From positions 1-21,702 of the IMG/VR virus record IMGVR_UViG_3300027759_000480: a DNA stretch of 21,702 nucleotides; one strand, given 5' to 3'. Positions 1,360 to 21,338 of the stretch are shown here, piece by piece. How positions within the stretch are numbered: the first letter of the stretch is position 1; the number at the start of each line of letters is the position of its first letter. Below the pieces are notes generated by a model. It searched no databases, was not told where the DNA came from, and saw nothing but the letters and a program-made list of their open reading frames with translations. The stretch is from a virus. The position numbers and the translations under genes are program-made.

Positions 1360-1935
1360 ATGAAAAAAAATAAAAAATTTTTAATAGGATTGCTCGCAAG
1401 TCTTGGATTGTCTTCAGTATTCTTGAATATTTCTAATGCTCAAGGTGTTGAAACTAACCTGAAAAATGATAAATATGCAACATTTACCGCTGAGGCGGTT
1501 TTTTTGCTTTCTAGGCCAGATCACTTAGATAAACCGTCTAGAGATAATGTAAGGACCCTTGCTGAATATCAGGATAAAGGACAACTTACTGATGTTGAAT
1601 TAAAAACTTTGCTGTCTGCTTGTGGTTTTGAAAATAAACACCTAGTTGAAGCCTGGGCTATTGCTAAAAAAGAATCAATGGGTAATTCTTTGGCTTTTAA
1701 TGGCAATAAAAGCACTGGAGACAAGTCATACGGATTATTTCAAATAAATATGATTGGTGATCTTAATGATGATAGAAAAGAAAAATATAATCTAGATTAC
1801 ACCAGCCAACTTTTAAATCCTTCGATCAATTGTCAAGTTGCTTATATTATGAGTAATGGTGGTAGTGATTGGGGACCTTGGAAAGGTATTACATCAAAAA
1901 CTAGAGAGTTTATGTATCAATTTCCAAAAGATTAA
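1360..1935 (+). CDS. Exported lysozyme-like muralytic enzyme (transglycosylase fold)
   Basis: The 191-residue protein should cleave peptidoglycan glycan strands. Residues 1-28 look like a Sec signal peptide: M-K-K-N-K-K, a hydrophobic core, then S-N-A-Q as a likely cleavage site. The catalytic half shows the lysozyme-like superfamily pattern: W-A-I-A-K-K-E-S with candidate catalytic Glu105, then S-Y-G-L-F-Q-I-N at 123-130, and a W-G-P-W motif near 171-174. The start is supported by GGAGA 5 nt upstream. It is the only rightward gene inside the leftward fibre block and has its own promoter. Its stop overlaps the stop of the facing gene (TTAA at 1932-1935). A signal peptide implies export independent of a holin; the protein could be an endolysin or a virion-associated lysin. 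Confidence 0.85.
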   Translation: MKKNKKFLIGLLASLGLSSVFLNISNAQGVETNLKNDKYATFTAEAVFLLSRPDHLDKPSRDNVRTLAEYQDKGQLTDVELKTLLSACGFENKHLVEAWAIAKKESMGNSLAFNGNKSTGDKSYGLFQINMIGDLNDDRKEKYNLDYTSQLLNPSINCQVAYIMSNGGSDWGPWKGITSKTREFMYQFPKD

Positions 1936-2819
1936 TCTATTGGATAAGCGTTATAGACCAATAAAGAATCTGCAACCATGAGTCCAAATGGTTCTTTTAC
2001 AAAATCATAAACTTTTCTATTTTCTTTAACTATTTCTATAGATCTAACTTGATATAAAGGTCCATCATTTAATGATTCTTCTGGATTTTTTACTATTAGA
2101 TCTCCAGACTTTAATTCTGAAGAAATAACAAAAATCAGTTTATCTCCCCTTAAAATAAGAACATCTTCTTGTATTGAAAATCTTTTATATTTATCTCCAT
2201 TAATAATCACGGTAGACTCTACTTCACTTTCATTTATTTTAATAACTTTAGATTCTACAGTATTATATGTTTTATCTTTATCTGAAGACCATTCTTGTAA
2301 TGCATCATGATTTAAAATTGGCATGTCATCAAAAGTTTTAGTTATTAATATGTCTCCAACTGATATATCTCTAGCCAACATGTAACCATTTTTAGTAAGT
2401 ACTGGTGTTTCTTCATCTATACAGAAGTATGTTGGTGAAAATCCAAATACTCTAAATGGTGAAAATCCAAACACGTTAAAAGGAGAAAATCCAAACACGT
2501 TAAAAGGAGAAAATCCAAACACGTTAAAAGGAGAAAATCCAAATACTCCAAAAGGAGTAAATGTAAATTGTCTAATTGTTAAATTAACTGGGGTTTCATA
2601 GTCTGCTGGTGTTGTTACTGCTGGAATTTGTTCAACAACTTTTCCATCATTTGCAAGTTCTGCTTCTTCTCCAGAAACTGAAGTAATCACATTTCCTAAA
2701 GTAAATCCCTCTGATACAACATCTGTTTGGGCTTGTGCACTTGTTCTTCCAATAAAATTAGGAAGTAGTTTCATTCCTTTTGCTACAACGTATTTAACTA
2801 GTTTTCCAAATAATGCCAT
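1932..2819 (-). CDS. PASTA + octapeptide-repeat + Hint (intein-like) virion protein
   Basis: The 295-residue protein has three parts. Residues about 19-83 form a PASTA domain (L-P-N-F-I-G-R-T-S-A-Q-A ... G-x-V-V-E-Q-I-P-A), a module that in other proteins binds cell-wall fragments or acts as a spacer. Residues about 89-129 are an eight-residue repeat, F-G-F-S-P-F-N-V, encoded by 24-bp DNA repeats. Residues 133-290 resemble a Hint domain. They open with C-I-D-E-E-T-P-V-L-T and D-I-S-V-G-D, and end with V-Y-D-F ... L-L-V-Y-N-A. Cys133 and Asn290 are kept, but the usual penultimate His is Tyr, the +1 residue is Ala, and the TxxH motif is not evident. Splicing is therefore unlikely, but self-cleavage is possible. 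SD AGGGG precedes the ATG by 7 nt. It is the last gene of the 4973-1932 operon. Confidence 0.85.
   Translation of the reverse strand: MALFGKLVKYVVAKGMKLLPNFIGRTSAQAQTDVVSEGFTLGNVITSVSGEEAELANDGKVVEQIPAVTTPADYETPVNLTIRQFTFTPFGVFGFSPFNVFGFSPFNVFGFSPFNVFGFSPFRVFGFSPTYFCIDEETPVLTKNGYMLARDISVGDILITKTFDDMPILNHDALQEWSSDKDKTYNTVESKVIKINESEVESTVIINGDKYKRFSIQEDVLILRGDKLIFVISSELKSGDLIVKNPEESLNDGPLYQVRSIEIVKENRKVYDFVKEPFGLMVADSLLVYNAYPID
2437..2556 (-). repeat. Five tandem 24-bp repeats encoding F-G-F-S-P-F-x-V
   Basis: Five in-frame 24-bp units start at 2437, 2461, 2485, 2509 and 2533. The middle three are identical and the outer two differ at a few bases. They lie inside the PASTA-Hint gene, between its two domains. 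Identical inner units and diverged ends are what recent slippage or unequal exchange would leave. Confidence 0.9.
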
Positions 2820-6917: not shown

Positions 6918-7103
6918 ATGTACAGAGATGAAGCAGTACAACTAATGTGTGACACTGTAAATAAATATAACAGAAGTCTTGTAGATGCTGGTGCCATGTC
7001 TAGCCAAGAAATGGAACAGTTCATTGAACAAGGGGCTGAACAGTTAAAGTTTATGAATGGTTTGTTATATGATACGTTAAAAGACAATGGTGTTATTAGT
7101 TAA
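6918..7103 (+). CDS. Small helical protein, 61 aa, unknown function
   Basis: The 61-residue product is acidic and mostly helical (E-A-V-Q-L-M-C-D-T-V-N-K-Y-N-R; S-Q-E-M-E-Q-F-I-E-Q-G-A-E-Q-L). I recognise no family. It is the first gene of a four-gene rightward operon, and its stop overlaps the start of the first oxygenase-like gene (TAATG at 7101-7105). That predicts translational coupling and perhaps a partner role. GAGAAAGGG gives a good ribosome-binding site. Confidence 0.75.
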   Translation: MYRDEAVQLMCDTVNKYNRSLVDAGAMSSQEMEQFIEQGAEQLKFMNGLLYDTLKDNGVIS

Positions 7104-7735
7104 TGGTTAAGTGGCCAGATAAAGATAAGCCTTATTTTGATTTGAAGCCAGTTGTTATACCCGATTTTTTTACGCCATCAGAATATGAAGGTTTGTATAA
7201 ACTAGTTGAGGACAGCAGAAAGCACGAACATAGTAACGTACAGTTAAATGAACCTATGGGTTATTTTGCTGAAAACATTTATATTAAAGAACCTTTTTAT
7301 TCTGTCATGTTAGATAAAATTAATAAGCATTACAAAATAGAACAATCAGACCCAGAAAAATGTGCGTTTATATATAACCGTTATACTTGGAAAACTGGTT
7401 TTGCACCAACACTTAAACCACACTTTGATACCATCTTAAATTTTGGAATGATCACATTAACTATAATTTTGAACACATCACTTAAGTGGAACATTGTTGT
7501 TGAAGATGAAGAATTTGAAATTGAACCAAACCAAGCATTGTTGTTTGCTGGAACACACCAAATACATTGGAGACCAAAAATAGAATTTGGCCCTGGTGAT
7601 TACTATGACTTTATGCTTTGCCAATTTGTTAACGATCCTCCACTAATGTTGGATGATGAAGAATACTGGCAAAAAATGGTTTCTAACAGAGCAGAAGCAA
7701 GTACAGATTGGTGGAGAAAATATGAGCATGAATAA
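7103..7735 (+). CDS. 2OG-Fe(II) oxygenase-like protein, paralog 1
   Basis: The 210-residue protein fits the double-stranded beta-helix 2-oxoglutarate/Fe(II) dioxygenases. It has H107-x-D109 (P-H-F-D-T) as the first two iron ligands. The motif F-A-G-T-H-Q-I-H-W-R-P at 148-158 supplies the distal His (152 or 155), with Arg157 as a possible 2OG-carboxylate anchor. A conserved G-D-Y-Y-D closes the core. The N-terminal third (P-D-F-F-T-P-S-E-Y-E-G-L-Y) is the helix typical of prolyl-hydroxylase-like members. It shares this plan with the next two genes: R-Y...G..P.L.P-H-x-D ... W...V-E ... F.G.H..H.R-P ... D-Y-Y-D. The reaction would be hydroxylation with 2OG decarboxylation; the substrate is unknown. 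Confidence 0.8.
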   Translation: MVKWPDKDKPYFDLKPVVIPDFFTPSEYEGLYKLVEDSRKHEHSNVQLNEPMGYFAENIYIKEPFYSVMLDKINKHYKIEQSDPEKCAFIYNRYTWKTGFAPTLKPHFDTILNFGMITLTIILNTSLKWNIVVEDEEFEIEPNQALLFAGTHQIHWRPKIEFGPGDYYDFMLCQFVNDPPLMLDDEEYWQKMVSNRAEASTDWWRKYEHE

Positions 7736-8369
7736 ATATGAAGATCTTAAACCAAAGTTAATCACAAACCTTTTCACCGAAGAAGAATATGCAAACCTTT
7801 ATAGCCAAGTAGCAGTGTTTAATAAAAGACCAGAATATGTTAGAGTTATCGACGAATTAGGATATACCTCAACTTCGCTTTTTCTTAATGAAACAATTAA
7901 AAACGTTTTGTGGAAAAAGATAGGAACAGAACTAGGAATAAAAACAAAAGAAATATTAACTCACTATGCTAGATACTCTTTACAATCAGGTCACAAACCT
8001 TTACTTATGCCACATTATGACAGAGGCTTAACCCATGCCAGGTTCTCTCTTGCTATAGTGTTAGATAGTACCTTTGATTGGGATATATATGTTGAAGGTG
8101 AGAAATTTATACCCCGCAAAAATGATGCAGTCCTATTCTCAGGATCTCACCAAGTTCACTGGAGACCTGACGTTGAATTTAAAGAAAACGACTACTATGA
8201 CATTATGGTATGTCAATTTGAAGAAGACACTGAGGAAAACCTAGTTCTTACATCAGATCATAAAGAACTTATGGATGAAAGAAACGGACAATGGTGTTTG
8301 CAATGGGAGAAGTTGTATGACGTAGAAACATACAATAAAAAAATGAACTATAATGGAACAGAGGAATAG
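7722..8369 (+). CDS. 2OG-Fe(II) oxygenase-like protein, paralog 2
   Basis: The 215-residue protein repeats the family layout: F-T-E-E-E-Y-A-N-L-Y near the N-terminus, P-H98-Y-D100 as iron ligands, F-D-W-D-I-Y-V-E in the core, F-S-G-S-H143-Q-V-H146-W-R148-P, then N-D-Y-Y-D. I place the start at ATG 7722 because GGTGGAG lies 6 nt before it and the N-terminus then aligns with its neighbours. An in-frame ATG further upstream (7653) would add 23 residues overlapping paralog 1 and has no ribosome-binding site. The gene overlaps the end of paralog 1 by 14 bases. All predicted ligands are present, so it should be active. Substrate unknown. Confidence 0.8.
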   Translation: MSMNKYEDLKPKLITNLFTEEEYANLYSQVAVFNKRPEYVRVIDELGYTSTSLFLNETIKNVLWKKIGTELGIKTKEILTHYARYSLQSGHKPLLMPHYDRGLTHARFSLAIVLDSTFDWDIYVEGEKFIPRKNDAVLFSGSHQVHWRPDVEFKENDYYDIMVCQFEEDTEENLVLTSDHKELMDERNGQWCLQWEKLYDVETYNKKMNYNGTEE

Positions 8370-8376
8370 GATAAAT

Positions 8377-9111
8377 ATGTCAAATGTAGAAGTAATAGCA
8401 AAAGAACCATTAGATCCAAAATGGAAAGCACATCACATTGAACCTGCTAAGCCAGATCATTACTTAGAATCAAATTTTTTTACTGCTGAAGAATATGGTC
8501 AAATTTATGACGTTGTTGTAAAAACCATGCAAAGAGGATTAGATGAAGCAGGAGATAGATGGGCTTTCTTTCTAAAGATTTCAAATAACGGATTTTATAT
8601 TTTAAATGAAGATGAAGAAGGAAAAGTTAAATACCCTGTAGCAATTAAAGATAAGATTAAAGCAAAGATGGAACTATTAATGGGTGAACCAGTTAGAGAT
8701 CCAGGAGTATTTTTTGCTAGATATACCAATGAGGCTGGAATGCCAAGTCTAATGCCACATTGCGACAAACATCACGACAGAATGCATGTAACAAATACAA
8801 TTCAATTAAATAAAACAGTTGATTGGGATTTTTATGTAGAAGATACTTTATATCAAACTGATGCTAACGATGCCGTATGGTTCTCAGGATCACATCACGT
8901 ACATTTTAGACCAGACTCTAATTTTCAAGATGAAGATTACTACGATATATTCTTAGTTTCATCTCAAAGAATTAATGATGAAAAGAATCCATTAGATAAA
9001 GAATGGTTTGCTACTCAAGAAAACTTGTGTGGACATTTTTCTAATATGAGATATAAAGATATATTTGAAAAAACTTTAAAGAAACAATACGAAGCAGAAG
9101 GCTGTCAATAA
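8377..9111 (+). CDS. 2OG-Fe(II) oxygenase-like protein, paralog 3
   Basis: The 244-residue protein is the longest of the trio, with about 20 extra N-terminal residues and an acidic C-terminal tail. Ligands are P-H128-C-D130 and F-S-G-S-H173-H-V-H176-F-R178-P, followed by E-D-Y-Y-D; the core has V-D-W-D-F-Y-V-E. I chose ATG 8377 because GAGG and AGGA sit 8-15 nt upstream and the upstream in-frame ATG (8353) lies inside the previous gene. It is the last gene of the operon and ends 4 nt before the stop of the facing leftward microgene. Three full-length, individually intact copies argue for divergent substrates or a heteromeric enzyme rather than decay. Confidence 0.8.
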   Translation: MSNVEVIAKEPLDPKWKAHHIEPAKPDHYLESNFFTAEEYGQIYDVVVKTMQRGLDEAGDRWAFFLKISNNGFYILNEDEEGKVKYPVAIKDKIKAKMELLMGEPVRDPGVFFARYTNEAGMPSLMPHCDKHHDRMHVTNTIQLNKTVDWDFYVEDTLYQTDANDAVWFSGSHHVHFRPDSNFQDEDYYDIFLVSSQRINDEKNPLDKEWFATQENLCGHFSNMRYKDIFEKTLKKQYEAEGCQ

Positions 9112-20720: not shown

Positions 20721-20749
20721 TTGACTATAAGTCATATAGATGGTATTAT
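20721..20749 (+). promoter_or_regulatory. Promoter TTGACT-17-TATTAT for the Ntn-hydrolase gene
   Basis: TTGACT (20721-20726) and TATTAT (20744-20749) are 17 bases apart. The leader has AAGGTG before the ATG at 20787. Confidence 0.65.
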
Positions 20750-20786
20750 TAATATAAATATATTTTAATCAAAAGGTGTATATATT

Positions 20787-21338
20787 ATGACTTGTATAGT
20801 AGGAATAGTAGATTCTCTTTCTACCCCGCGTAAAGTTTTTATGGCGGCAGATAGCGGGGCATCTGATGAAAGTATTATGATATCTATTATAGATCCTAAG
20901 ATACAAAAAAATGGAAAATATTTAATAGGATATGCAGGAGAAACTGGATTAGGACAATTATTACATTCTATAGATCTTCCAGATCCTTCTGGATATAATG
21001 GAAAAGAATTAACTAGATTTTTAAGAACTAAATTTTGTCAAGTATTTAAAAATGCTATGGGTATATATTCTCCTTCTACTTCCCCCGCCGATGATAAGGA
21101 TGGCGGCATCCTGGCTCTGATCGCAGTACGCGGCCGCCTCTTTGAATTTGATTCCTCTGACTTTCAACTTAATGAGATCACTGAAGGCGCCATTGGATCA
21201 GGCGGCACCATAGCCTTTGGATCCCTATACACAACCCGCGGGTATAAAGATATAAACAAAAGATTAAGAATAGCAGTAGAAAGTGCAATTGAATATAGTC
21301 CTTCTTGTAAAGGACCTATATATTATGATCATATATAA
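20787..21338 (+). CDS. Proteasome-beta/HslV-like Ntn hydrolase
   Basis: The 183-residue protein has the landmarks of the proteasome-beta/HslV Ntn-hydrolase family, whose N-terminal Thr is nucleophile after Met removal. These are M-T2-C-I-V-G-I-V, D22 in M-A-A-D-S-G-A, K38 in I-D-P-K-I-Q-K-N-G-K-Y-L-I-G-Y-A-G, G-S-G-G-T-I-A-F-G-S-L near 137-147, and A-V-E-S-A-I-E-Y-S near 163-171. Thr2, Asp22 and Lys38 match the Thr1/Asp17/Lys33 triad of peptidases. The length is close to HslV. Because Thr is already at position 2, no propeptide is needed. No ATPase partner is in the window, so it may use a host unfoldase or act alone. Middle codons are unusually GC-rich. AAGGTG lies 9 nt upstream. Confidence 0.8.
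   Translation: MTCIVGIVDSLSTPRKVFMAADSGASDESIMISIIDPKIQKNGKYLIGYAGETGLGQLLHSIDLPDPSGYNGKELTRFLRTKFCQVFKNAMGIYSPSTSPADDKDGGILALIAVRGRLFEFDSSDFQLNEITEGAIGSGGTIAFGSLYTTRGYKDINKRLRIAVESAIEYSPSCKGPIYYDHI

Follow-up and report, generated by a model that had tools for sequence, protein, structure and literature searches.

A divergent branch of the phage HslV-like peptidase family in an actinophage

Introduction

Among proteasome homologues of group I, AAH and PPH were described by Fuchs, Alva and Lupas in 2021, AAH as proteins of about 180 residues that begin with MTCIV and lack a propeptide, and PPH as phage-borne proteins of about 140 residues without helix H2 (PMC8665760). That study reported no AAH gene in a phage specific to Actinobacteria, found that AAA+ genes do not co-occur, and gives Actinobacteria no HslV mark in Table 1; a further relative, connectase, has a proteasome-like fold yet is a protein ligase (PMC8665760). 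BPH, the beta-proteobacterial proteasome homologue (PDB 5ovs, 5ovt and 5ovu), is a cellular enzyme and has no known unfoldase. In addition, the lake-water phage DSL-LC01 (Actinomycetia phage, OQ999401), a freshwater actinophage, carries a homologue of the same fold family labelled 'ATP-dependent protease subunit HslV'. Our literature search brought up no paper in which the function of a phage member of the family had been studied.

We analysed 21,702 nucleotides of viral DNA (IMG/VR record IMGVR_UViG_3300027759_000480, positions 1 to 21,702; hereafter the window), in which a preliminary description made from the letters alone had proposed a proteasome-beta/HslV-like peptidase gene at positions 20787-21338 (+). 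The gene is a divergent new branch of an already known phage family and not a new type of system; we found no earlier description of its clade, of its promoter or of the codon band reported below.

Results

The peptidase gene and its active site

The open reading frame at 20787-21338 (+) encodes a product of 183 residues with the N-terminus M-T-C-I-V. Its sole possible start is ATG, an in-frame TAA lying 7 codons upstream with no ATG, GTG or TTG in between, so that Thr is residue 2. A Met that precedes Thr is normally cut off by methionine aminopeptidase, which makes a propeptide unnecessary, as the preliminary description had claimed. The Thr2 codon (20790..20792, +) specifies the expected N-terminal nucleophile once Met is gone; it aligns with residue 1 of BPH, HslV and 20S beta and is Thr in 148 and Ser in 2 of 150 aligned family members. 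The codons of Asp22 (20850..20852, +; proteasome Asp17) and Lys38 (20898..20900, +; proteasome Lys33) specify residues that are invariant in all 150, as are Gly137 and Gly139. Thus T2, D22 and K38 are the conserved equivalents of Thr1/Ser1, Asp17 and Lys33 of proteasome-like Ntn hydrolases, and both the reading frame and the three residues had been correctly named beforehand, with their conservation in homologues given as a point on which the claim would turn.

The homology of the protein to known families is far above chance. It matches the PHROG_1040 'peptidase HslV family' profile over its full length (63.5 bits, E 4.5e-17), as do 49 of the 49 members of the family alignment, and shares their catalytic set. 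A Pfam scan of the window protein alone returned no match, and PF00227 was weakly matched by just 2 of the 49 members; among NCBIfam models, the HslV model TIGR03692 gave no match to the window protein and the PrcB model TIGR03690 gave 11.6 bits, below its cut-off of 191.9. Comparison between members of the window clade yielded dN/dS values of 0.07-0.27, indicating purifying selection on the gene.

In two relatives, the peptidase gene (L019:2822-3367 and L020:2007-2552) apparently has an ATT start replacing ATG, with the promoter retained; a GTG lies 9 bases upstream of the ATT, and a start there would bury the Thr.

Predicted fold

The AlphaFold2 model, built from an alignment of 49 sequences (pLDDT 91.4, pTM 0.88), displays the four-layer proteasome-beta-type Ntn fold, so the fold claimed in the preliminary description is present in the structure prediction that it had suggested as a check. 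Foldseek against the PDB gave 835 chains at E<=0.001, all proteasome-like among the matches listed, with BPH (E 9e-10) and then HslV (E 4e-9) as best matches, and a profile search against the PDB likewise placed BPH at the top (5.5e-8), followed by HslV (5e-5) and 20S beta (7e-5). Alignment to epoxomicin-bound BPH with VIA-align (Z 20.0, rmsd 2.7 over 166 residues) set residues 2..183 of the model on residues 1..186 of the BPH chain, with model residue 2 meeting chain residue 1. Sequence identity is 18-22% to BPH and about 15-22% to 20S beta.

The model contains a 23-residue helix at 72-94, which, together with its length of 183 residues, distinguishes the window protein from PPH. Its sole poorly predicted part is the loop that follows the second long helix (pLDDT <50 at residues 98-104), which corresponds to the position of the proteasome pore loop; this loop is longer than that of HslV, as in BPH, but shorter than that of BPH. 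The window clade has the canonical Gly51 and Ser138 of HslV, PrcB and BPH in place of the Ser and Cys found in most of the family. The FRM of the family motif FRMGQ, elsewhere near-invariant, is missing from the clade, with AGETGLGQ standing for TSSFRMGQ; this clade-specific change beside the active site (SSFRMGQ to GETGLGQ) includes Glu52.

Relatives and position within group I

IMG/VR yielded 23 close relatives (79-97% identity) together with many that are more distant (28-36%); the clade that includes L037 and L038 spans 74-97%. Identity to PHROG_1040 members outside this clade is 26-35%. INPHARED contains 20 phage records at 26-34% identity to the window protein, including those of Ochrobactrum phage OC, Psychrobacter phage D'Alembert, Geobacillus phage E3, Moorella phage MTATph1 and Vibrio phages; with a more typical family member as query the number was 177, among them 96 Salmonella and 31 Escherichia records, of which the T5-like Epseptimavirus Eps7 was the one that we examined. 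Bacterial relatives of the core family occur in Azospirillum, Rhizobium, Streptomyces, Frankia, Paenibacillus and others; the search profile was built from core-family sequences and may therefore have overlooked relatives that the window clade itself has in bacteria. The occurrence in Azospirillum, Rhizobium, Streptomyces, Frankia and phages agrees with that described for AAH (PMC8665760), which the window protein also resembles in its length, its MTCIV start and its lack of a propeptide.

The window clade nevertheless stands apart from both the AAH core and the PPH-like phages in a tree of 47 rows (support 87/99; PPH-like clade 99/99), and differs from the AAH core in the canonical Gly51 and Ser138. 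Grouping the window with actinobacterial AAH was rejected by the AU test (p-AU 0.010), and with it the idea that an actinobacterial AAH gene was captured recently, while a joint clade with the presumed PPH rows, likewise phage-borne group I homologues, was not rejected (p-AU 0.09). A quick tree of 123 rows gave the window clade a support of 100 and placed the window protein outside the PrcB branch; it contained a single BPH sequence with an end branch of 4.8, and the DSL-LC01 homologue (229 residues) is very divergent and lies on a long separate branch. In the 47-row tree HslV, as the root, joins the long branch of the window at its base (87/99, not starred, with a long-branch warning), and because it joins there the unity of the window rows is just 38/64. 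We accordingly treat the window clade as a branch that diverges within group I, the assemblage of BPH, HslV, AAH and PPH, and assign it no AAH, PPH or CPH label because long branches meet at the HslV root, as the tool warned.

Phage type and host

The contig of relative L002 (61.5 kb) is collinear with the window, gene by gene, from about 15.5 kb to the window end. WhiB, which is confined to Actinobacteria and their phages (PMC10611076), is encoded in the contigs of relatives L002 and L016. Furthermore, the DNA polymerase III alpha of L002 is 57% identical to that of Streptomyces phages, and within the window GP88 shows 56-59% identity to Mycobacterium phages and DUF932 52% to Streptomyces phages. 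By these marker genes and the WhiB of its relatives the window phage is an actinophage, in line with the phage origin and actinobacterial host proposed beforehand. A freshwater habitat is suggested by the relative DSL-LC01 and by literature on WhiB-bearing lake phages, as distinct from sample records of the window.

Several other genes were noted in these phages. In DSL-LC01 (L178:8001-8954) a WhiB gene directly follows the HslV-like gene. The L002 contig encodes a complete FtsZ (L176:6464-7393, contig positions 44464-45393; Tubulin and FtsZ_C domains) with 49-59% identity to FtsZ of gut-phage and other phage-labelled contigs, as well as an Hsp20 small heat-shock protein and a thioredoxin (L176:12063-12491 and L177:842-1144), which lie some 2.5-6 kb away from the peptidase gene. 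Within the window, positions 1932-2819 (-) encode a PASTA-domain protein with repeated FGFSPFNV units, whose C-terminal segment appears Hint/intein-like by eye (CIDEETPVLTKNG...VYDFVKEPFGLMVADSLLVYN), and positions 7103-9111 (+) hold three genes in tandem that resemble one another and carry HxD...H-like motifs; by eye they look like 2-oxoglutarate oxygenases, and their PHROG match is weak.

Promoter, neighbourhood and search for an unfoldase

Upstream of the peptidase start lies a sigma70-type promoter sequence (TTGACT-17-TATTAT, with TGG before it; 20721..20749, +), whose TTGAC and TATxAT-like, near-invariant -10 region are retained in 16 of 16 aligned relatives although the flanks diverge. 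A likely ribosome binding site, AAAGG, follows at 20772..20776 (+), with AAGG/AGGG-like sequences in most relatives. The gene is isolated: most relatives have about 200 bp between it and the upstream gene, and the genes that recur downstream of it are encoded on the opposite strand. In unrelated phages, family members often adjoin genes for RNR, thymidylate synthase, DHFR, PhoH, MazG, dCMP deaminase or NAD, that is, nucleotide-metabolism and takeover genes and not capsid genes. The conserved promoter, the isolation of the gene and its neighbours elsewhere together fit a role in early takeover or recycling and not in capsid maturation.

The preliminary description had seen no ATPase nearby and had proposed a search of related phages for an unfoldase; none was detected in the window or in the incomplete contigs of its clade. 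Specifically, PF07724 (Clp/HslU type) had no match in the window-clade contigs of 20-62 kb and scored above cut-off in just 2 of 37 family-bearing records, neither of them in the window clade, and PF00004 had no match in the 7 window-clade contigs searched, both sets being incomplete contigs. Three actinobacterial genomes that we examined contain PrcB and PrcA and gave no HslV match. PADLOC gave the peptidase gene no defence label.

Two further candidate elements were discarded: a GTATTAAGAA motif that recurs around the gene and whose 7 matches are not significant, since 17 of 100 shuffles reach as many, and an intrinsic terminator at 21298-21315, which was no better than chance.

A conserved band of GC-ending codons

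Within this AT-rich gene, codons 98-152 (21078..21242, +) form a band of GC-ending codons, and a shorter band surrounds Asp22 (codons 12-24; 20820..20858, +); both employ GGC, GCC, CTG and CGC, which are rare in the window phage, and codons 30-97 and 153-183 are mostly A- or T-ending. Measured against synonymous shuffles, the longer band (z 4.9) surpasses the GC3 swing of every other ORF of at least 120 residues in the window, and likewise in the L002 contig (z 4.5). It recurs in 13 relatives, L002, L009 and L016 among them, and has sharp edges at about the same codons in each, except that in L038 GC-ending codons run into the last segment. The fraction of identical synonymous codons is 0.57 inside the band versus 0.81-0.82 in codons 2-97, indicating that the codons vary at a preserved base composition. 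Neither conserved RNA structure (fold z -0.34; no Rfam match) nor an overlapping reading frame (no long frame spans the band) accounts for it.

Discussion

On balance we favour the view that the gene encodes an early-expressed group I Thr peptidase that is active in the absence of a dedicated unfoldase in a freshwater actinobacterial host. A host-type promoter of its own would drive this gene alone, probably early in infection, a timing suggested by the promoter consensus. The host methionine aminopeptidase may then remove Met1 and expose Thr2 as the nucleophile, with Lys38 and Asp22 as its partners; the subunits would probably assemble into a BPH-like homo-oligomeric ring or double ring, in which peptides or unfolded proteins could be cut without a dedicated ATPase. 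A proteasome-like fold does not by itself prove proteolysis, as the ligase connectase illustrates.

The connectase example bears on a narrower activity, namely a highly specific peptidase or connectase-like ligase directed at one host or phage target, for instance to disarm a defence or a regulator. The isolated gene with its own promoter, the clade contigs in which no unfoldase was found, the frequent location of homologues within host-takeover and nucleotide modules and the SSFRMGQ to GETGLGQ change with Glu52 beside the active site all favour such a specialist; however, no target is known, PADLOC found no match, and helices H1 and H2, absent from connectase, are present in the model and favour ring contacts, leaving this reading rather unlikely. 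In its most elaborate form the window clade would be a third branch of group I homologues, peculiar to actinophages, that early on and unaided by an unfoldase serves as a specific peptidase or ligase for a host target, with its synthesis paced by the conserved rare-codon block running from the pore loop to between helices H3 and H4; this strikes us as a long shot. If the protein were instead the proteolytic chamber of an ATPase, paired in HslUV fashion with a phage unfoldase or a host Clp/Mpa-type ring, its HslV-like fold would be accounted for, and the missing unfoldase is no proof to the contrary because the contigs are fragments. Against this, the rarity of PF07724 in family-bearing records (2 of 37, 0 in the window clade), the published lack of AAA+ co-occurrence, and the absence of HslV both from the entry for Actinobacteria in Table 1 of Fuchs et al. 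(PMC8665760) and from the three genomes examined make such a pairing distinctly improbable.

The preliminary description had also considered use within the proteasome-like machinery of the host, and the PrcA and PrcB genes of the actinobacterial genomes examined would provide a 20S particle for an extra beta subunit to join. The window protein is not PrcB by score or by tree, it shares little identity with 20S beta, its best match is BPH, which lacks alpha rings, and relatives of it are carried by phages whose hosts (Salmonella, Escherichia, Vibrio and Geobacillus) have, to our knowledge, no 20S proteasome; such a use is thus very hard to credit. Proteases for capsid maturation are common in phages, which would make a prohead or other morphogenetic protease a natural thought. 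We know of no prohead protease fold related to that of the window protein, and the gene has its own promoter and in other phages sits beside RNR, thymidylate synthase, DHFR and PhoH genes, so we regard a morphogenetic role as extremely doubtful.

Proteasome homologues carried by phages form a widespread group, given that one query alone recovered 177 INPHARED records, none found with a known function. The window clade and DSL-LC01 indicate that actinophages do carry proteasome homologues of the group I assemblage, which does not imply that the clade belongs to AAH. Because the protein is compact, lacks a propeptide and has no detected unfoldase, and because relatives exist in easily grown T5-like phages, its function is directly testable. 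Elsewhere in the family, Aeromonas phage 2L372X carries two adjacent HslV-family genes (L197:1001-1552 and the next gene), whose products could form a mixed ring.
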